Source: a virus
Virus record (IMG/VR): IMGVR_UViG_3300048837_000718
Coordinates: 1-23,014 of that record
Direction: 5' to 3' (one strand)
DNA length: 23,014 bases
Below, in pieces: positions 187 to 21,231 of this stretch; positions within the stretch are counted from its first letter, which is position 1, and every line of letters starts with the position of its first letter. The notes under the pieces are model-generated. The model was given only the letters and a program-made list of their open reading frames with translations. It was not told where the DNA came from and made no database searches. Both the position numbers and the translations under genes were made by a program.

Positions 187-768
187 TTACTTGACCAGCG
201 CCAACCGCTGCTCGCCCAGGTCAACAGGTGCCCGACTCTCTTCCAGCTCGCTCTGCGCGTGCGCCCCGACCGGGAAGGTCTTCACGAACTGCGCATGCAC
301 CTCTGCGTAGTGGGCAGCCAGCGAGGCCGCAGGCAGGCCCTTGAGCGTGGTCGGCGTCTGGCCCAGGCCCACTTGCAGGCGCTGGATGGCCTGGACGGCG
401 ATCGGTGCGAGCTGCTCTTCGACCGCGGCAAGCTGCTGATTCGCGCCCTTCAGCTGCTGGACTTCGAGGTCCAGGGCTGCTTTGGCATCTCGCAGTTCTC
501 GCAGCTCTGCTTGCAGATATGCCACGAGCCCGCTTTCATCTGCTTTCGGGTCAGTTGGGGCCTGTTGCGACAGCGCAGTCTGGTCTCCCGAGGCTGCCGT
601 TTCGGTCGAAGCAGCCGCCACAGAAGAAGCCTCCACAATCGGATTAACCAATTCGCCATCCGGCACCTCGATCTCGCGCAGCTCGTGCGGCACCGTCGAC
701 AGGTCGACCCCGCTGGCGACCTTGGCGCGGTCCGCTTCACTGAAGAAGACGACCTGTTTCACTTTCAT
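187..768 (-). CDS. Probable nested scaffold protein (internal start in the S49 gene)
   Basis: Met322 of the protease gene (ATG at 766-768, minus strand) is preceded by AGGAG and a six-base spacer, a better ribosome binding site than that of the parent gene. It lies just after the peptidase core and a linker. Translation from it would give a 193-aa scaffold starting MKVKQVVFFSEAD, with a Pro/Ser/Thr-rich linker, a coiled coil and a basic/hydrophobic C-terminus. Lambda and relatives make scaffold (Nu3) from an in-frame start inside the protease gene C, so the arrangement has direct precedent. The separate product is inferred; the start signal is seen. Confidence 0.55.
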   Translation of the reverse strand: MKVKQVVFFSEADRAKVASGVDLSTVPHELREIEVPDGELVNPIVEASSVAAASTETAASGDQTALSQQAPTDPKADESGLVAYLQAELRELRDAKAALDLEVQQLKGANQQLAAVEEQLAPIAVQAIQRLQVGLGQTPTTLKGLPAASLAAHYAEVHAQFVKTFPVGAHAQSELEESRAPVDLGEQRLALVK

Positions 769-1731
769 CAACGGCTCCTGGGTGGAGAGCGCGGCCTGGG
801 CCGCATAACTTGAGCGCCGACCGTAATCGACCGTGCGCGGTTTGGATTCTTGTTTCGAATTGTGCTTTGAAATCAAGCGCTCTACAAGGCCATTCAGGGT
901 GTAAATTCCATCGGCCAGCCCGAGTTGCACCGCTTCTTCGCCGAAGAAGGTCTGACCTTCTGCCCATTTGGATGGCTCGGTCAGTGCGAGCTTCGGCCTT
1001 TGGCTGACCAGATGCTGCTTGAAGAAGCCGTGAAGTTGGTCCATTTTCTCCTGCTGAAGCTTCAATCCCTCCTCGGACAGCGGCTCGGTCGGGTTGAGCA
1101 ACGCCTTGAACTTGCCAGAGCGCAGGGTGACCGTATCGACACCGCTCTCCTTGAGCCGGCGATGGATCGAGGCGATCGTGGAGATCGCGCCGACCGAGCC
1201 GATCTCGGCCATCTTGTCGACGTACAGCTCGGGGTTGTTGTTGGCGAGCCAGTAGCCTGCACTCAGTGCTGAACTACTGGTATAGCTCATCGTGTTGGGC
1301 GCCATTTGCCGTGCGCCGAGCATGACTTCCGTCAGCCCGTTGATGCCGGACGCGTCGCCGCCAGGAGTGGAGAAGGCATGCACGATCGAGTGGATCTCGC
1401 CGTCTGCCTGCATCTTCGCGAGCTTCGTGACCGCTCTGGCGATCACCGGGTAGCTGGTCAGGCCGAAGTAGTCATCGCGCCAAGACTCTTCCGGCACCAG
1501 GGAGCCGGAGATCTGCAGGATGCCGACGCCTTCATGGATCTGGATGCGCGAGTCGACCGCGTAGTCTTCGTCCTCATCTTCGGAATCTTGATCGGAGCTG
1601 TACAGTTTGAGCTGGCCGGCCAGCGCCTGCGGCGGGTACTTGGATGGGTCATCCAGGTACCGGGCATTCGCCATCAGCACCTCGTCCAAGGAGGTCTGCG
1701 TCCCCAGCCAGAAATTTCCCAATCGAATCAT
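187..1731 (-). CDS. S49-family prohead protease with C-terminal scaffold-like region
   Basis: This 514-aa protein is a SppA/lambda-C type serine peptidase that would process the prohead. Residues 64-290 form the peptidase core. STPGG (121-125) is the substrate-binding loop, SALSAGYWLA (154-163) carries the likely nucleophile Ser157, and RSGKFK (204-209) supplies the general base. Lys209 lies 52 residues after Ser157, the same spacing as the Ser-Lys dyads of lambda C and Bacillus SppA. Residues 322-514 are acidic and Gln/Ala-rich with a coiled-coil stretch around 405-450, typical of a scaffold. The start is preceded by AGGTGG, and the gene begins 15 bases after the portal stop, the usual portal-protease-scaffold order. 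A nested in-frame start at 768 may make free scaffold. Confidence 0.9.
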   Translation of the reverse strand: MIRLGNFWLGTQTSLDEVLMANARYLDDPSKYPPQALAGQLKLYSSDQDSEDEDEDYAVDSRIQIHEGVGILQISGSLVPEESWRDDYFGLTSYPVIARAVTKLAKMQADGEIHSIVHAFSTPGGDASGINGLTEVMLGARQMAPNTMSYTSSSALSAGYWLANNNPELYVDKMAEIGSVGAISTIASIHRRLKESGVDTVTLRSGKFKALLNPTEPLSEEGLKLQQEKMDQLHGFFKQHLVSQRPKLALTEPSKWAEGQTFFGEEAVQLGLADGIYTLNGLVERLISKHNSKQESKPRTVDYGRRSSYAAQAALSTQEPLMKVKQVVFFSEADRAKVASGVDLSTVPHELREIEVPDGELVNPIVEASSVAAASTETAASGDQTALSQQAPTDPKADESGLVAYLQAELRELRDAKAALDLEVQQLKGANQQLAAVEEQLAPIAVQAIQRLQVGLGQTPTTLKGLPAASLAAHYAEVHAQFVKTFPVGAHAQSELEESRAPVDLGEQRLALVK

Positions 1732-1746
1732 GATGTTACCACCTGC

Positions 1747-3246
1747 TCAGGGGCGCTGTGCATTGTCTTTGCCTCCGGCCGAACTGGGTGTCTGCGGAGC
1801 GACCTGGCGATTGCGCGAGTTCGCGGCGTTGGCCGGCATTGTGCCCTCGCCGTCGACCCCGGACGCAGCGGCCCCCTTCTTCATGAAGCCGGTGCCGCTC
1901 AGGGGCGTGAAGCCTTCCGGAAGCGACGAGTTGCCAATCTCCGAGTTCGCCTCGTCATCGGTCTTCATGCCCAACGAGAGCTGCTCGAGCACTCGGCTTT
2001 GGCGCATCACCTTGTGCGGCTCCAGCTCCAGATCGGGCCGCAGCTCCACCGGATCGAACTCCAGCTCTACGTAGGCATCGACCCCATAGAGGCGCACCGC
2101 CAACGTCAGCGCCCTGGACAACACCTCTTCAACCGGCTTCTGCAGCATCGCCGCGGTCTTGGTGGAGAGCAGGGCCTCGACACTTGAGGTGTTTTGGGAT
2201 CCACCCAGCCGCAGGCCGAGCATGGTGGGTGAGGACTTCAGCGCGCTCGCCGCCAGGCCAGACAGCTGATCGATGAGCTGAGCGATCTCCGCCTTCTCGC
2301 CCGTGGTGCGAAGTGCTTCGACCTCGGCGGTGGAATAGACGACCAGCGCATCCTCCGGATTCAGGCGCGAAAGGGCATCCTGATGCGCGATGCGCACATC
2401 GTCCAGATAATTCGAGAGCTTGTTCGGGTCGCCCTTGATCTCCGGCGGCGCGGAGGCGACGACCATCTCATAGTTCAAGGAGACGACCAGCCGACTCATG
2501 CCGGCCCGGGTGATGACGCGCCAGGCGTCTTCAAGGAAGGTGTCGTAGTGGAAGACCCGCGAGAGCCCGGAGTGCATCAGCGGCAGCGCGTACTTACGCT
2601 GTGCGGACTTCAGAGACTCGGCAATGAAGATCGTCGGCAGGTCCAAGACGATGTCGTCGCCGCCCTGTGCATTCTTCTGGGTCGGCACTTTCTTGCCTGT
2701 CTTTGCCACCCAAGTCACTGAATCGTAAGGGAAAACGTGCATATCCCTAGGAAGCCGGTACTGGTCCAGGACCAGCTCCAGCCCGACCCCGCCGGTCAGC
2801 AGCGTCTCCAGGCGCATGGTTTCGATCAGGCCTTCCAGGCCGCGCTTGTCCGAATAGCCTTTCGTGTAATCCCAGTCTGTGGCTAGAGACGCGATGACCG
2901 CCTCGGCAGCCACGACTGCCTCACGGGAAAACTCCTCTGTCGCCGTGTAGTACGCCTTGATTTGGAACTTCGTCGCCATCATGGCGAGGTAATTGGTAAT
3001 CGCGGTCGAGACGATCCCGTCTGTCTCGAACAGTGCCCGCATCTTGGTCGCGGCTGCGGACGAGTTGCGGGCGTCTCTGATCGCACGATTTAATTGGATG
3101 TTGTCGTCGCGCCGGATCTGATCTCCCGGCAGCGCCTGGGAGTAGGCCGTCTGTGCGCGTGCCTTGCCGACTTGCCGACGCGGCAACACCACTGAATCCG
3201 TGCCCTTCTGGCCTTGTGGCGGTCTGACTGAAGAGGGCTCGGCCAT
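1747..3246 (-). CDS. Phage portal protein
   Basis: This 499-aa protein lies between the large terminase and the S49 protease, the standard portal position. Portal proteins form the dodecameric ring at one head vertex through which DNA enters and leaves. Consistent features include an N-terminal region rich in charged and Ala residues, a segment with TDGIVSTAITNYLAMMA (about 94-110) and a YDSVTWV turn (about 173-179). A LIDQLSGLAASALKSSP stretch (about 325-341) precedes an LLSTKTAAMLQKPVEEVLSRAL helix (about 360-381), and a charged C-terminal clip or barrel tail follows. The length is normal for the family. The ribosome binding site is weak (an AGG about 14 bases upstream), so the start is likely but not certain. 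No connector gene lies in the 99 bases between it and the terminase. Confidence 0.82.
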   Translation of the reverse strand: MAEPSSVRPPQGQKGTDSVVLPRRQVGKARAQTAYSQALPGDQIRRDDNIQLNRAIRDARNSSAAATKMRALFETDGIVSTAITNYLAMMATKFQIKAYYTATEEFSREAVVAAEAVIASLATDWDYTKGYSDKRGLEGLIETMRLETLLTGGVGLELVLDQYRLPRDMHVFPYDSVTWVAKTGKKVPTQKNAQGGDDIVLDLPTIFIAESLKSAQRKYALPLMHSGLSRVFHYDTFLEDAWRVITRAGMSRLVVSLNYEMVVASAPPEIKGDPNKLSNYLDDVRIAHQDALSRLNPEDALVVYSTAEVEALRTTGEKAEIAQLIDQLSGLAASALKSSPTMLGLRLGGSQNTSSVEALLSTKTAAMLQKPVEEVLSRALTLAVRLYGVDAYVELEFDPVELRPDLELEPHKVMRQSRVLEQLSLGMKTDDEANSEIGNSSLPEGFTPLSGTGFMKKGAAASGVDGEGTMPANAANSRNRQVAPQTPSSAGGKDNAQRP

Positions 3247-3345: not shown

Positions 3346-5079
3346 CTATGCTGCTGTTTTCATCTTCACGCGGGAGACCAGCAGCGAGCTGGCAGGCTGC
3401 ACGAAGATCTTCGTGTTGTCGTCGCAGAGTTTAGCCGCCAACCAAGCGTAGTATATTGCGAAAAAGAAATGGTTGTCGTCTGAAGAAGTAATCCACTGGG
3501 CTTTTTCGTCCCCAATACCGTCAACATTTACAACGCGCTTCAACTGTTCGAGGTGTGACTTAACCTCTTCCTCAAACTGAAGCCCCATCGGCAACTTGAT
3601 GTACCCTCTGTTCCAGTCAGAAACATACTCATCTATCGTCTTTGTGCGGTTGGCTTTAATAACCCCCTCAGCTTCATCAAGAGTGTACGGCGTCAACGAC
3701 GACTTGCCCTGCCCTCTAATAAAAAAGCAAGCCCACACATTGTTGTACGGCGTTTCTTCTTGAATGCTTTTAGGAATTGTCAGGTCAGGGGCAGCATCGA
3801 CTATTCCCTGAACGGCTCGGTATTGCTTATACCGTTCAATGAACACATTCTTTGTATTATTGCTGCCGTCCTGCACGACCTTCTCCAGGTGAACGATTTC
3901 CAGCAGCTTCCCGTTCTTCTTGCCGATCGCCAAGTGACTGGTCCGGCCCACGTCCATCCCGAGAACCGCGCCGGTAACCGCCCCTGAAAGAGGCCCTTGC
4001 GGTCTAACGGTGAAGCTGTTCTCGATGACCGAGCGCAGGATCATCTCCCCGGCACCCTCTGCCGCGCAGCCCAAACCAAAACGCTGCCAGGTCACGTTGT
4101 CTTTATAGGTTCCGAGGTCCCGAATAAGTCTGGGAGGGTTGCGGATCTGCGGCAGGACCAAGGCGTTTGCATTGTAAGACGCATCTCTTCTGTCAGGGTA
4201 TTCGGCAACCCATGCCCTATATGTCGGCTCTGCCATGTTCGCTACAGTGATTGGCTTCCTGCATTCAGGGCAAAGAATATGGGCCTCGTCTATCCGGTAA
4301 TTAGGATTGGTTAAATCCGAAGGCGACAGCAGTGTGATGTTTTCATCAAAGCCAGGCAGGATAAGATGCTGCAGCAAATCTGGCAATACCCAGCGTCCAC
4401 AAACTGTGTGCCATATCATATAGTGATTGCGCGTACCGTCTTCAAACAGCTTGGTAATTCCTGACCCAGGAAACAGCGGGCTGGAAAAGTAGCGAACAAT
4501 GCGCTCTTCTTCTTTCTGGTGGCCTAACCGTGACGCAAAAATTTTCACGATCTCCGGGTTCAGGAACTCCATTTCGTCCAGCATCAGCATTCTGGCCGGG
4601 GTACTGATGGCCGAGCTTGTCGCGGACCCGCCCAGCAGATGCAGAAATGATCGGCCGATCCGCTTTAGCATTGTGCTGTCGACATCCTTGGCAACAAGGT
4701 TCTTGAGACGGGGGCTCGCTTCGATGATCGGGTCGATGCGCGTGCTTGCGATCTTACTCGCACCGTGTGCGGTCGGCATCACGTAGAGGCCGTGAATCCC
4801 GCGGTACTTCGCCAGAATCGCCAGCGCCTGGCGAATGGATAACTCAGAGAGTCCACATTGCGTGGATTTTTTAATGCTCACAACCGGGTGGTTGTCGTCC
4901 AGAATCGCCCGCTGGTACTCATGGCCTTTGAAGCTGAACCGCTTGTTCGGGTCGACCGGATCGCTGGTGTTGGTTTCGACCCACTTGCTGATGTTGGAGA
5001 GCCCGCCTCCGGTGGTCGAGGCGGATTCGACCTGATCGACCAGGGTCAGGAATAGGTCTTCGTCGAAGTGGACGGACAT
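3346..5079 (-). CDS. terL: Terminase large subunit, GpA family
   Basis: This 577-aa protein has the two-domain layout of lambda GpA-type terminases, the ATP-driven motor and nuclease that cuts and packages DNA. A Walker A-like loop, SIKKSTQCGLSE (68-79), is the degenerate form seen in GpA proteins. The Walker B is RMLMLDE (163-169), with Asp168 and catalytic Glu169. Cys227, Cys270 and Cys273 suggest a metal-binding insert. The RNase-H-like nuclease core shows GMDVGRT (Asp376), IVDAAPD (Asp428) and SSDDNHFFF (Asp534/535), all acidic positions expected for metal binding. Much of the gene looks more AT-rich than the portal and protease genes downstream, hinting at mosaic origin. No small terminase is visible beside it. 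Confidence 0.93.
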   Translation of the reverse strand: MSVHFDEDLFLTLVDQVESASTTGGGLSNISKWVETNTSDPVDPNKRFSFKGHEYQRAILDDNHPVVSIKKSTQCGLSELSIRQALAILAKYRGIHGLYVMPTAHGASKIASTRIDPIIEASPRLKNLVAKDVDSTMLKRIGRSFLHLLGGSATSSAISTPARMLMLDEMEFLNPEIVKIFASRLGHQKEEERIVRYFSSPLFPGSGITKLFEDGTRNHYMIWHTVCGRWVLPDLLQHLILPGFDENITLLSPSDLTNPNYRIDEAHILCPECRKPITVANMAEPTYRAWVAEYPDRRDASYNANALVLPQIRNPPRLIRDLGTYKDNVTWQRFGLGCAAEGAGEMILRSVIENSFTVRPQGPLSGAVTGAVLGMDVGRTSHLAIGKKNGKLLEIVHLEKVVQDGSNNTKNVFIERYKQYRAVQGIVDAAPDLTIPKSIQEETPYNNVWACFFIRGQGKSSLTPYTLDEAEGVIKANRTKTIDEYVSDWNRGYIKLPMGLQFEEEVKSHLEQLKRVVNVDGIGDEKAQWITSSDDNHFFFAIYYAWLAAKLCDDNTKIFVQPASSLLVSRVKMKTAA

Positions 5080-5169: not shown

Positions 5170-5772
5170 TTACGAACAAGCAGTGCAGGACTTACTCCTA
5201 GCCTCTTCCTTTGGGTTTTTCATGTCTTTAATTGCTAGCGGGACCCTGTCGTGATTGACGTGAAACCCGTATAATTTTTCAGCATATTTTCTAGCCGCAA
5301 TAGCTTCGCTTAGCTCAGTAAAATGCCCAATATTTATTTTCTTGCGATTAACCATTATGTAGGATGCCCACTTTCTTCTGTCAGAAGCCCAAGAGACTCC
5401 AGTTACCCCACTGGAGTTGTTCTTTTTTCGCTGCATGTTTTTACCATTCTCCTTCCTACTGACTATGCGTAGGTTATTCCATGAGTTATCTCCGCGGTTT
5501 CCGTTTATGTGATCTACTTCTTTTTCAACTCCTGGGTCTTCCCCCGTCATAATCAGCCATGCTAGTCGATGTAGTAAATATCCTTCTTTGTTTATTCTGA
5601 CCGTTAAGTATCCGCTTGTTGGAATCTTAGTCCCTACAAGCTCTCCTATACGCCTATTTCTTGCTGACTTGGTTTTTCTAGTGAATAGCCCGGTCTCAGG
5701 ATCATACCGGAACAGCTCATGCAGTCGCTCTTGCGAGGGAAGTGGTTTGCGTGCAGACTTGCGGTCGGTCAT
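5170..5772 (-). CDS. HNH homing endonuclease with AP2 DNA-binding domain
   Basis: From ATG 5772 (GGGAG eight bases upstream, preferred over an in-frame ATG at 5826 that lacks one) the product is 200 aa. The N-terminal part has the FRYDPETGLFTRK strand pair typical of HNH_3 proteins. The nuclease core follows: His68 (LLHRLAW), Asp87-His88 (VDHINGN) and the NNLR motif with Asn100. Residues 122-170 (GVTGVSWASDRRKW onward) match an AP2 DNA-binding domain. Proteins of this build are free-standing homing endonucleases that nick intronless target genes and spread by recombination. The gene looks clearly more AT-rich than its surroundings, as expected of a recent arrival, and it sits immediately upstream of the terminase, a common niche. 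The C-terminus ends in a short Cys-containing tail (SCTACS). Confidence 0.9.
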   Translation of the reverse strand: MTDRKSARKPLPSQERLHELFRYDPETGLFTRKTKSARNRRIGELVGTKIPTSGYLTVRINKEGYLLHRLAWLIMTGEDPGVEKEVDHINGNRGDNSWNNLRIVSRKENGKNMQRKKNNSSGVTGVSWASDRRKWASYIMVNRKKINIGHFTELSEAIAARKYAEKLYGFHVNHDRVPLAIKDMKNPKEEARSKSCTACS

Positions 5773-5980
5773 CTTCGATCTCCCAGATAGATTGAGGTTG
5801 GCAAGTGGCCCAGGTGCCTTCAACACTCTGGGCCGCGTCTCTTATTGTCCCACCGGGAGGGTGGAAGTCAAGGGCTGGTGGCTGGGTTCTGAAGCTGGCA
5901 CAGTAGGACTGGCTAAGTGCTTAGTAAAAACTTGAAAATCTGCTCGGGGTTTTTGGGGGTACAGCGCAGCCCTCTACACC

Positions 5981-5998
5981 TTGGCACGCCAATTGCAT
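5981..5998 (+). promoter_or_regulatory. Sigma-54-type promoter 1 (rightward)
   Basis: TTGGCACGCCAATTGCAT matches the sigma-54 -24/-12 consensus (YTGGCACG, four bases, TTGCW) at every conserved position, with GG and GC exactly ten bases apart. The predicted start is near 6008. It is the best single match in the window. Confidence 0.72.
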
Positions 5999-6008
5999 AG
6001 CGTACGGG

Positions 6009-6026
6009 TTGGCACGTTATGTGCTT
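6009..6026 (+). promoter_or_regulatory. Sigma-54-type promoter 2 (rightward)
   Basis: TTGGCACGTTATGTGCTT has a perfect -24 half and a -12 half (GTGCTT) with the invariant GC, spaced GG-N10-GC. It begins 28 bases after promoter 1 on the same strand. Predicted start is near 6036. Confidence 0.6.
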
Positions 6027-6048
6027 ACACACGAAGCGTGCCAGGTTG

Positions 6049-6066
6049 TTGGCATGCGGTTTGCTT
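6049..6066 (+). promoter_or_regulatory. Sigma-54-type promoter 3 (rightward)
   Basis: TTGGCATGCGGTTTGCTT differs from consensus by one base in the -24 half (CAT for CAC) and has a perfect TTGC at -12, again GG-N10-GC. Its predicted start, near 6076, falls inside the first GTGAC dyad, so binding there could block it. Confidence 0.6.
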
Positions 6067-6116
6067 GTGACGCTTTACGTCACATTGTGACGTTCGATTG
6101 TGACACTCTGCGTCAC
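6066..6116. promoter_or_regulatory. Two GTGAC-N7-GTCAC dyads, likely activator or repressor site
   Basis: TGTGACG, five bases, CGTCACA forms a perfect dyad at 6066-6084. GTGAC, seven bases, GTCAC repeats it at 6100-6116, and a lone TGTGACG half site lies between them at 6086-6092. The dyad centres (6075 and 6108) are 33 bases apart, about three helical turns, so both face the same side of the DNA. They lie roughly 133 and 100 bases upstream of the predicted start of promoter 4, a usual place for enhancer sites of sigma-54 activators. The spacing does not fit a CRP site. The cognate protein is unknown. Confidence 0.6.
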
Positions 6117-6118
6117 CT

Positions 6119-6136
6119 ATGCACCTAGTGTGCCAG
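6119..6136 (-). promoter_or_regulatory. Sigma-54-type promoter 5 (leftward)
   Basis: On the minus strand CTGGCACACTAGGTGCAT gives a good -24 half (CTGGCAC) and a -12 half with the invariant GC, spaced GG-N10-GC. The predicted start is near 6109, pointing toward the HNH, terminase and head genes. The second GTGAC dyad overlaps this start. Confidence 0.58.
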
Positions 6137-6180
6137 CTTAGTTTGTTCGTAAGCTCTTGTTTCTATTCACTATTATTTAC

Positions 6181-6198
6181 TTGGCACATAGTTCGCAT
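6181..6198 (+). promoter_or_regulatory. Sigma-54-type promoter 4 (rightward)
   Basis: TTGGCACATAGTTCGCAT keeps the full TTGGCAC of the -24 half and the GC of the -12 half, spaced GG-N10-GC. Its predicted start near 6208 gives a leader of about 120 bases before the 6328 gene, making it the closest candidate promoter for the right arm. Confidence 0.62.
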
Positions 6199-6327: not shown

Positions 6328-6942
6328 ATGGCCGCCAACACCTTCAACGTCAAAACCGCCACTACCGAGCTGCTCGGCTTCGCCGCTCGTCAAGGGGAGT
6401 CCTTGACCAAGCGCGCCAAGCCTCTGGCGGATGCTATCGCCGAGACGCCAGAGTCCGAGCGGTCCGCGTTCGCTCACCAATCTTTCCTCGCTGCGCGTGG
6501 TGAGGTTGTCGCGGCTAAGATCAGCAACGCTAAAGATCGAGCCCGCGCCTTGTCAAAAGCCTGGAACCGTATTGTCGATGCGGTCCGGTATCACCTTGGC
6601 AAAGCTGACCTGTCAGTCACGTTCCCGAACCTCGGGAGCGGCGAAGGTGAAACTGTGGTGCAAACCACGGCTGAAGCTGGCATCGCTCGCAAAGTCAAAA
6701 AGGCTGACCGCGAAGAAGCGGACGCGCAAGCGTTGGAAGCGTTCCAAGCGGAGCGGGCGCAAGCGGAGCTGGACGCGCTCCGCGCGATGTCGCCCGACGA
6801 CTTGACCGCGCAAATCGTCGCCATGCTCGACGCATGGTCCGATGATGCGGCCATGCGCGCCCAAGTCGTCGCCAACGTGCGGAGCGCGGTTTGCCCGACG
6901 ATTGACCTTTTGAGCAAGCGCCCCGAATTGCTCGCCGCTTGA
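6328..6942 (+). CDS. Unknown 204-aa alpha-helical protein, first gene of right arm
   Basis: I do not recognise a family. The protein looks soluble, Ala-rich and mostly helical. A charged stretch at about 120-160, rich in Ala, Glu, Arg and Gln (KKADREEADAQALEAF), is a probable coiled coil. There is no signal peptide or membrane segment. The start is set by AACCTGGAGA six bases upstream, the leader shared by several genes further right. It is the first gene after the sigma-54-type promoters, a position often used for regulators or early takeover proteins. That role is inference. Confidence 0.85.
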   Translation: MAANTFNVKTATTELLGFAARQGESLTKRAKPLADAIAETPESERSAFAHQSFLAARGEVVAAKISNAKDRARALSKAWNRIVDAVRYHLGKADLSVTFPNLGSGEGETVVQTTAEAGIARKVKKADREEADAQALEAFQAERAQAELDALRAMSPDDLTAQIVAMLDAWSDDAAMRAQVVANVRSAVCPTIDLLSKRPELLAA

Positions 6943-13547: not shown

Positions 13548-14810
13548 ATGAAAAGTATGAAGATCAATGGCATCGAGGTGCTTATCGCCCCAGGCGCCGA
13601 CTTGCGAGGCGCCCGCTTGCAAGGCGCCGACTTGCGAGGCGCCCGCTTGCGAAGCGCCGACTTGCGAGGCGCCGACTTGCAAAACGCCGACTTGCAAGGC
13701 GCCGACTTGCGAGGCGCCGACTTGCGAGGCGCCCGCTTGCGAGGGGCCAACTTGCAAAACGCCGACTTGCAAAACGCCGACTTGCGAGGCGCCCGCTTGC
13801 GAAGCGCCGACTTGCGAGGCGCCGACTTGCAAAACGCCAACTTGCAAAACGCCGACTTGCAAAACGCCGACTTGCAATGGGCCAACTTGCAATGGGCCAA
13901 CTTGCAGGAGGCCGACTTGCGAGGAGCCGACTTGCGAAACGCCGACTTGCGAGGAGCCAACTTGCGAGGAGCCAACTTGCGAGGAGCCAACTTGCGAGGA
14001 GCCAACTTGCAGGAGGCCGACTTGCGAGGAGCCGACTTGCGAGGAGCCGACTTGCGAAACGCCGACTTGCGAGGAGCCGACTTGCAGGAGGCCAACTTGC
14101 AGGAGGCCAACTTGCGAGGAGCCAACTTGCCGGGAGCCAACTTGCCGGGAGCCAACTTGCCGGGAGCCAACTTGCGAGGAGCCAACTTGCGAGGAGCCAA
14201 CTTGCGAGGAGCCAACTTGCAATGGGCCAACTTGCAGGAGGCCAACTTGCAGGAGGCCAACTTGCAGGAGGCCAACTTGCAGGAGGCCAACTTGCGAGGA
14301 GCCAACTTGCCGGGAGCCAACTTGCGAGGAGCCAACTTGCAGGAGGCCAACTTGCAGGAGGCCAACTTGCAGGAGGCCAACTTGCGAGGAGCCAACTTGC
14401 CGGGAGCCAACTTGCGAGGAGCCAACTTGCGAGGAGCCGACTTGCGAGGAGCCGACTTGCGAAACGTAAAGATAAGCTACCTGACGACAGGTATGCAGGA
14501 AGCCCCTCAAGGAGAGCTGTTGGGATATAAGAAGGTAATGGATTGTATCGTGTTGTTAAAAATCCCGAGGGAAGCCGCCCGCTCCTGCGCGACATCGCGC
14601 AAGCACAGAGCTGAATATGCAGAGGTGATCTGCATTGAAGACAGTCATGGGCAGGCAGTGGAGAACGTATACAATATCAATTATGGCGTTATGTATAGAG
14701 TCGGCGAACTGGTATTCCCGGACTCGTGGGACGAAGACCGATGGAAAGAGTGCAGTCACGGGATCCACTTCTTCTTGACGGAGGAAGAGGCGCGTGCCTG
14801 GTCGGGTTAA
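13548..14810 (+). CDS. Pentapeptide-repeat protein with C-terminal DUF5758-like domain
   Basis: The start is set by AACCTGGAGA six bases upstream. After 16 residues (MKSMKINGIEVLIAPG) come 58 uninterrupted A(D/N/R)LXX pentapeptides (residues 17-306), which should form a right-handed quadrilateral beta-helix of about 14 coils. The last 110 residues are a separate domain: YKKVMDCIVLLKIPREAARS, a CATSRKHRAEYAEVICIE segment, then VGELVFPDSWDEDRWKECSHG and IHFFLTEEEA. This resembles the C-terminal domain (DUF5758 type) found after pentapeptide repeats in other phage proteins; the domain name is recalled, not searched. Some pentapeptide proteins mimic DNA and bind gyrase, but that function is not established for this type. 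The array is remarkably free of decay. Confidence 0.92.
   Translation: MKSMKINGIEVLIAPGADLRGARLQGADLRGARLRSADLRGADLQNADLQGADLRGADLRGARLRGANLQNADLQNADLRGARLRSADLRGADLQNANLQNADLQNADLQWANLQWANLQEADLRGADLRNADLRGANLRGANLRGANLRGANLQEADLRGADLRGADLRNADLRGADLQEANLQEANLRGANLPGANLPGANLPGANLRGANLRGANLRGANLQWANLQEANLQEANLQEANLQEANLRGANLPGANLRGANLQEANLQEANLQEANLRGANLPGANLRGANLRGADLRGADLRNVKISYLTTGMQEAPQGELLGYKKVMDCIVLLKIPREAARSCATSRKHRAEYAEVICIEDSHGQAVENVYNINYGVMYRVGELVFPDSWDEDRWKECSHGIHFFLTEEEARAWSG
13596..14465 (+). repeat. 15-base tandem array, 58 units
   Basis: Each unit is a variant of GCCGACTTGCGAGGC; CTTGC is almost invariant. Units up to about 13910 mostly use GGCGCC or AACGCC at the junction, while units after that use GGAGCC, CGGGAGCC or AGGAGGCC, so the array has two compositional halves. 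The second half also has a higher-order repeat: the 30-residue block QEANL x3, RGANL, PGANL, RGANL occurs twice in a row. Because 15 is a multiple of three, several other frames stay open; those are artefacts. Confidence 0.95.
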
Positions 14811-20488: not shown

Positions 20489-20883
20489 GCACCTACAATA
20501 AAGACATCTCGGAATACTGGCACGAACGCATGCCGGCAGAGATCAAGGAGCTTTCCAGAAAAGCAAACCATGATCTCTACTTCGGACCCTCCTACTACGA
20601 CGCCGACGACAACGAAGTTTCCTGCTTCGATGAAGGCTCCATCCCGTTCGACTTCAAAGCCGCGTGTCGCGCAATCACGGAGTGGTGCGACGAGAACATG
20701 TACCCGTTGTATTTGGAGGACGGATGCGGCATCCTGGAAGAGTTTCCTCCTGAATTCTTTGAGGAAGTAGAAAACGATGACGGAGAGGTTGTACTCGTCG
20801 AGGTCGAGAGACCGTACTACGAGTGGGACATCAGAGACCAGATGAGGATCGTCTTCGGGAAAGAGTTGGCACACTACTTGTAG
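20485..20883 (+). CDS. Acidic unknown protein (132 aa)
   Basis: The ATGA junction with the previous gene and AGG upstream fix the start. The product is acidic and aromatic throughout, for example FPPEFFEEVENDDGEVVLVE (about 89-108). No family is recognised. It ends nine bases before the alpha-CTD-like gene and probably shares its transcript. Confidence 0.78.
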   Translation: MSTYNKDISEYWHERMPAEIKELSRKANHDLYFGPSYYDADDNEVSCFDEGSIPFDFKAACRAITEWCDENMYPLYLEDGCGILEEFPPEFFEEVENDDGEVVLVEVERPYYEWDIRDQMRIVFGKELAHYL

Positions 20884-20892
20884 GAGTCCGTC

Positions 20893-21231
20893 ATGACCAA
20901 GCAGGAAGAACTACAGTGGTTACTGACAATGGAAGAGGAGCTGCTAGGTGAGATCTCAGAGCTGATGGGCAAGCTAAAGCCAGTAAGAGCGAGACTGGCT
21001 GATCTCCGAGCTGAGCAAGTCGCGTGGGATACCGTTCCGATAGAAGAGTTGGAGCTTACGATACGGGCCTACAATGTGTTGAAAGCCAATGGTATTAATA
21101 CTGTTGCTGAGCTTGCAGGCTACTCAAGACCAAAGCTCCTAGCCATGAAAGGGTTTGGCCGGCTTAGCTTAGGGGAGGTCAGGGACGCGCTACATGATCG
21201 AGGTCTTAACTTTGCTAGGGAGGACACATGA
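20893..21231 (+). CDS. RNA polymerase alpha-CTD-like protein with coiled-coil N-terminus
   Basis: Residues 1-45 are a charged, Leu/Glu-rich probable coiled coil. Residues 48-107 match the C-terminal domain of bacterial RpoA: PIEELELTIRAYNVLKANGI, an AELAGYSRPKLLAMKGFG stretch, and LSLGEVRDALHDRGL. Against E. coli alpha the DNA-contact positions Arg265, Asn268, Gly296 and Ser299 are kept (Arg58, Asn61, Gly89, Ser92), while Cys269 is Val, Lys297 is Arg and Lys298 is Leu. The RpoA N-terminal domain is absent, so this is not an alpha subunit. It could bind UP-element DNA or compete with host alpha-CTD for activators. Role inferred. Confidence 0.88.
   Translation: MTKQEELQWLLTMEEELLGEISELMGKLKPVRARLADLRAEQVAWDTVPIEELELTIRAYNVLKANGINTVAELAGYSRPKLLAMKGFGRLSLGEVRDALHDRGLNFAREDT

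Follow-up and report, generated by a model that had tools for sequence, protein, structure and literature searches.

Which promoters serve the two gene arms of an uncultured phage, and are the repeats crowded between those arms read by a polymerase of the host? The window analyzed here, by which we mean the whole stretch of 23,014 bases, is an IMG/VR virus fragment from a tailed phage. Its left arm runs leftward and carries HNH, terminase large subunit (TerL), portal, and protease genes (phrog and Pfam matches), and its right arm runs rightward from position 6328, with genes that have few known relatives and are probably early or middle genes. The gap between the arms is the only divergent gap of the fragment and holds the cluster of sites (Table 1), which bears out the placement of the cluster, in a preliminary description of this DNA, at the point where both arms diverge.

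Searches of IMG/VR with the TerL, the portal, and a 540-aa protein returned no close relatives of the window. In the phage collection, only distant TerL relatives were found, and the 619-aa and 204-aa proteins had no match; among the TerL matches listed, the best was to the Vibrio phage SHOU24 group (29% identity), and Pseudomonas phage YuA was not among these. The 204-aa protein appeared mostly helical in a low-confidence model (pLDDT 50), which was too poor for use. The right arm also encodes a 420-aa protein composed of ADLRGANLQ-type pentapeptide repeats (13548-14810, plus strand).

Table 1. Genes and sequence elements in and beside the divergent gap of the window (scores and ranks refer to the E. 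coli sigma-54 weight matrix)
Feature	Position	Strand	Remarks
S49-type head maturation protease	187..1731	-	phrog_53, PF01343
Portal protein	1747..3246	-	phrog_3753 8e-70
Terminase large subunit	3346..5079	-	phrog_675 2e-82, PF05876
HNH endonuclease, first leftward gene	5170..5826	-	phrog_99 8e-66, PF13392
R1 sigma-54 site TTGGCACGCCAATTGCA	5981..5997	+	perfect consensus; score 19.9, top in window; predicted start ~6008
R2 sigma-54 site TTGGCACGTTATGTGCT	6009..6025	+	score 14.9, rank 5; predicted start ~6036
Degenerate leftward site CTGGCACGCTTCGTGTG	6028..6044	-	GT replacing GC; score 11.0, rank 9
R3 sigma-54 site TTGGCATGCGGTTTGCT	6049..6065	+	score 16.2, rank 3; predicted start ~6076
Palindrome TGTGACGCTTTACGTCACA, candidate enhancer/operator site 1	6066..6084		perfect inverted repeat
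Palindrome TGTGACACTCTGCGTCACC, candidate enhancer/operator site 2	6099..6117		33 bp from first
L1 sigma-54 site CTGGCACACTAGGTGCA, leftward	6120..6136	-	score 15.1, rank 4; predicted start ~6109
R4 sigma-54 site TTGGCACATAGTTCGCA	6181..6197	+	score 12.3, rank 8; predicted start ~6208
First rightward gene, 204 aa	6328..6942	+	ORF without family match or phage relative

A dense cluster of sigma-54-type sites in the divergent gap

Five aligned sites within about 220 bases, with GG and GC ten bases apart, can be read directly in the sequence as previously described, and the interval is exactly 10 bases in all five. Compared with the sigma-54 pattern YTGGCAC-G-N4-TTGCW, with GG at -24 and GC at -12, all five sites belonged to that class. 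The shared TTGGCAY...TGCWT pattern that had been proposed for them holds in general, with the departures that L1 starts with CTGG rather than TTGG and the site at 6181 has TCGCA rather than TGCA. A degenerate leftward site, missing from the earlier list, lies a 19-bp convergent step from R2.

The window contains four exact copies of TGGCAYN6TGCW, every one inside the same 155 bp; 300 random Markov-1 sequences averaged 0.2 per 23 kb, with a maximum of 2. When the spacing was varied from 0 to 15, the sigma-54 spacing gave four matches, and every other spacing gave 0 or 1. We also scanned both strands of the 23 kb with a weight matrix built from 42 intergenic "sense" E. coli sigma-54 ChIP-seq sites (PMC4591121 Table 1). 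Four gap sites ranked in the top five and the fifth ranked eighth, and the site at 5981 (+), which had been called a perfect consensus match, stood at the top of the ranking. At a score of at least 12 there were 8 matches in the window versus 1.2 expected in random sequences, and 5 of the 8 were the gap sites (E. coli sites on their own matrix have a median of 16.3). The best matches of a whole-window scan, which the preliminary description had suggested, thus cluster in the divergent gap. A sigma-70 scan of this gap turned up no rightward promoter and a single sigma-70-like match, weak and leftward (5871-5844).

Outside the gap, the second-best matrix match of the window, TTGGCACACTACTTGTA at 20866-20882 (+; score 16.3), has GT for GC, like the pspA and pspG sites of E. 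coli, and may be a chance match. It is located just upstream of a gene for a free-standing RNA polymerase alpha C-terminal domain protein (112 aa, 20893-21231, plus strand; PF03118, E 8e-18), related domains of which occur at 36-52% identity in some phage records. This protein could modify the host polymerase; it was looked for in 49 array phages and found in none.

Similar arrays are widespread in uncultured viruses

When IMG/VR was scanned for tandem pairs of such sites, at least 120 stretches were detected, compared to 39 with a spacer one base longer. Three sites in tandem were found in at least 119 stretches of viral contigs versus 17 in 84,980 cellular genomes. The cellular triple arrays were mostly simple tandem repeats, several of them within genes, with diversified sites in three loci (L181, L185, and L187). 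Grouped by shared sequence, the non-redundant viral arrays comprised at least 116 groups with 401 sites. The strict sigma-54 pattern matched in 47 of 50 records, and the reversed-pattern control in 0 of 50.

The retrieved arrays also conform to the sigma-54 consensus where the search left the sequence free. Among the open positions of the pattern, position 8 was G or A in 97% and position 13 was T in 79%, and the E. coli matrix gave viral array sites a median score of 18.9, versus 14.7 with random open positions in the same pattern. The earlier proposal would have been undermined by relatives that keep TTGGCAC and lose the GC ten bases later; in the neighborhoods of the 116 arrays, 145 of the 190 TGGCAY words outside the retrieval were followed by GC at precisely the -12 spacing, with 1-3 at adjacent offsets. 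The phages carrying these arrays have almost no genes in common with the window, and their terminases differ. No arrays were found in the scanned isolates related to the window by TerL, nor in further isolates related to the array phages.

Several of these loci differ in their arrangement. L187 (5215-5485), in a Methylococcaceae bin, has seven sigma-54 sites about 40 bp apart and resembles an integrated mobile element carrying a similar array, because an integrase and a D5-type primase lie beside it and pheT (phenylalanyl-tRNA synthetase beta) adjoins. A large phage (L057, the 147.5-kb record G031), whose TerL falls in the PHROG of the window (1.2e-81), has about 16 sigma-54 sites scattered through 6.5 kb, and many of its operons may use sigma-54. 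In the related contigs L056, L078, L020, and L112, sigma-54 pairs are repeated lengthwise and do not form one cluster.

Arrays lie mostly at divergence points and are closely packed

Among the gaps flanked by genes of 150 aa or more, 69 of 94 array-bearing gaps (73%) were divergent versus 36 of 332 (11%) other gaps; with one array per group, 36 of 57 array gaps were divergent. Terminase and portal genes are present on array contigs. Many arrays have TerL about 1.2 kb away, and in 31 of 32 non-redundant cases this gene is transcribed outward, the layout also seen in the window; other gene families near arrays likewise point outward almost without exception. The direction of the array sites relative to TerL was mixed (59 toward, 64 away), and the array faces the packaging arm in some phages and, in others such as the window, mostly the opposite arm.

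Sites within arrays are spaced with a tandem peak at 26-28 bp and at 18-22 bp and 24-25 bp for convergent and divergent pairs, respectively. Neighboring sites at these distances are too close to hold polymerase all at once, and the array may therefore raise occupancy, let the direction be chosen, or serve in part as a roadblock.

Paired palindromes and the source of the activator

Sigma-54 holoenzyme requires an AAA+ activator, driven by ATP, before it can initiate, and activator sites often lie about three helical turns apart. Exact matches to TGTGACN7GTCAC occur in the window at 6066 and 6099 only, and the centers of these two palindromes are 33 bp, or about three helical turns, apart. The pair at 6066-6117 is a lead to a candidate activator binding site, and our literature search found nothing linking TGTGAC palindromes to a named activator. 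Repeated palindromes were present near 10 of 116 arrays versus 0.8 expected in shuffles, and the palindrome of the window was found near none of the other arrays. Different phages may thus use different activators, since the palindrome motif varies by phage.

One such case is the array of L207 (3799-4075), in which, as in its relatives L109, L196, and L217, opposed sites lie about 20 bp apart. Several ATACCC-TACT-GGGTAT palindromes (ATACCC-N4-GGGTAT repeats) stand beside the array in this group. A gene near the L207 array is 54% identical to a gene of Caulobacter phage S2B, which has no array.

A sigma-54 activator gene (PF00158) was found in 0 of 98 array records, many of which are fragments and several of which exceed 100 kb; for the window, this check consisted of Pfam scans of selected proteins. 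Similarly, a sigma-54 gene (PF04552) was found in 0 of 50 array records, the window included, many of them again fragments. We infer that the host supplies the activator, because no array record searched encodes either protein. A weak predicted sigma-54-like protein of Pectobacterium phage Q19 (PMC7693777; HHpred E = 0.67) was considered and set aside as not relevant here.

A proposed host-dependent switch and its alternatives

The cluster is real and of sigma-54 type, and its sites likely work as host-sigma-54 promoters, as suggested by the consensus match, the exact spacing, the retention of GC in 145 of 190 words, and the open positions that fit the consensus. We consider it quite probable, from sequence comparison, that the cluster is a promoter array for the host sigma-54 (RpoN) polymerase, located where the two arms of the phage diverge. 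Four sites would be aimed at the rightward arm, and one plus the degenerate one at the terminase and structural arm. Sigma-54 holoenzyme would load at them as closed complexes and would fire only upon the action of an NtrC-type host activator that signals host physiology or infection stress, the foremost candidate for its binding site being the palindrome pair at 6066-6117. The predicted starts of R3 (6076) and L1 (6109) would fall inside the palindromes, and R4 would lie about 115 bp downstream of their middle. A protein bound to the palindromes could then block both R3 and L1 and at the same time activate R4, as well as R1 and R2 from the other side, and the region would therefore be a switch. 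Weighing against the promoter reading are the lack of PF00158 and PF04552 matches in the array records searched (98 and 50, many of them fragments), the close packing of tandem sites and of the convergent pairs in other phages, the mixed orientation of array sites relative to TerL, and the failure to find arrays in the known isolates related by TerL.

A different role for the same protein is that the array binds sigma-54 or its holoenzyme mainly to soak up polymerase or to insulate the arms, as a decoy or roadblock. Sigma-54 is able to sit inactive on DNA. The tandem and convergent spacings (26-28 and 18-22 bp) are denser than holoenzyme promoters could use at once, and it is mainly this crowding that keeps the decoy among the explanations; moreover, many sigma-54 binding sites are without known promoter function (PMC4591121). 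We nevertheless regard the decoy as rather unlikely, given that the arrays lie strongly at divergent gene starts, where promoters are needed, that the gap has no rightward sigma-70 promoter, and that the few sites per genome are a low number for titrating sigma-54. The preliminary description had itself raised the alternative that the repeats bind another protein, such as a packaging or replication factor, and that the GC match is coincidental. A terminase small subunit at a pac or cos site, or a replication initiator, would be a protein of this sort. The frequent distance of about 1.2 kb from TerL, the usual place of pac and cos sites, and the regular alternating geometry of some arrays would fit such binding. 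Phage-specific terminases would be expected to have differing sites, each specific to its own terminase, but a single motif, fitting the host sigma-54 consensus at unselected positions, is common to phages with different, unrelated terminases. It is because unrelated phages share this consensus that we consider a packaging or replication protein very unlikely.

Sigma-54 transcripts might instead prime phage DNA replication, with mRNA not their main product, and a noncoding divergent region with short repeats would suit this role; with neither an origin signature nor a replication gene found beside the array in the window, and without any specific support, we give this idea scarcely any weight. 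Chance matches are still less probable, practically negligible for the cluster: single sites such as that at 20866 do occur at near-chance rates, but a stretch of 155 bp has four exact matches, where 0.2 would be expected in the full 23 kb, and 116 other arrays agree. A chance origin of the cluster is refuted by the exact-pattern, spacing, array, and matrix counts.

Beyond the window, we hypothesize, at about even odds, that dense sigma-54 arrays at divergence points have evolved convergently and make up a general class of phage control region, which couples the choice of arm (early versus packaging) to a stress or nutrient activator of the host, the phages encoding none themselves, with the window being a member in which a paired-palindrome enhancer doubles as an operator. 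A main switch under sigma-54 would mean that the phage responds to cues from the host, for example nitrogen supply, envelope stress, or development, because sigma-54 polymerase cannot start without its ATP-driven activator. With at least 116 distinct arrays present in uncultured phages, handing early or late gene control to host sigma-54 would seem to be a common, overlooked phage strategy, and the isolates scanned here had no array. A simple prediction is that the phage outcome would be altered in an rpoN or activator mutant, and for phages represented by metagenomic sequence alone, the arrays may allow physiology, and perhaps also host group, to be predicted.

Comparison with known systems

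Lambda-type divergent switches resemble the window in that two arms are separated by divergent promoters with operator-like palindromes; they differ in using sigma-70 promoters and repressors, whereas the window has sigma-54 elements instead and no repressor gene was seen beside its gap among the phrog and Pfam matches. Bacterial sigma-54 promoters with NtrC-family enhancers (for example glnA, norV, and pspA) share the same -24/-12 sequence and spacing, and the candidate enhancer palindromes of the window are paired about three helical turns apart, much like the sites at such promoters. Cellular sigma-54 promoters are single as a rule. Triple arrays set the phages apart, being rare in cellular genomes (17 stretches in 84,980) compared to the at least 119 in viral contigs.

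The nearest precedent in phages is Pseudomonas phage YuA (Mesyanzhinovviridae), for which dependence of its promoters on host rpoN was reportedly shown with a mutant by Ceyssens et al. in 2008. The YuA record (NC_010116) annotates three -24/-12 promoters of high activity (2000 MU). A scan of this genome with the strict consensus gave no exact match, and one site with one mismatch lies on the minus strand inside the plus-strand annotated promoter stretch 47152-47312. The preliminary description had called RpoN control of phages rarely reported, which holds for the literature searched (most subscription papers lay outside it), where no description of phage sigma-54 arrays came to light; the claim needs qualifying in that YuA is a precedent and arrays are widespread in uncultured phages. 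YuA and the window are alike in having phage promoters of the -24/-12 type served, in the window probably, by host sigma-54; those of YuA are single promoters spread over its late region, whereas the window, from an apparently unrelated phage, has a dense, near-consensus, two-directional array at its divergence point. YuA is the precedent for the use of host sigma-54 by a phage, of which the dense array described here would be a variant.
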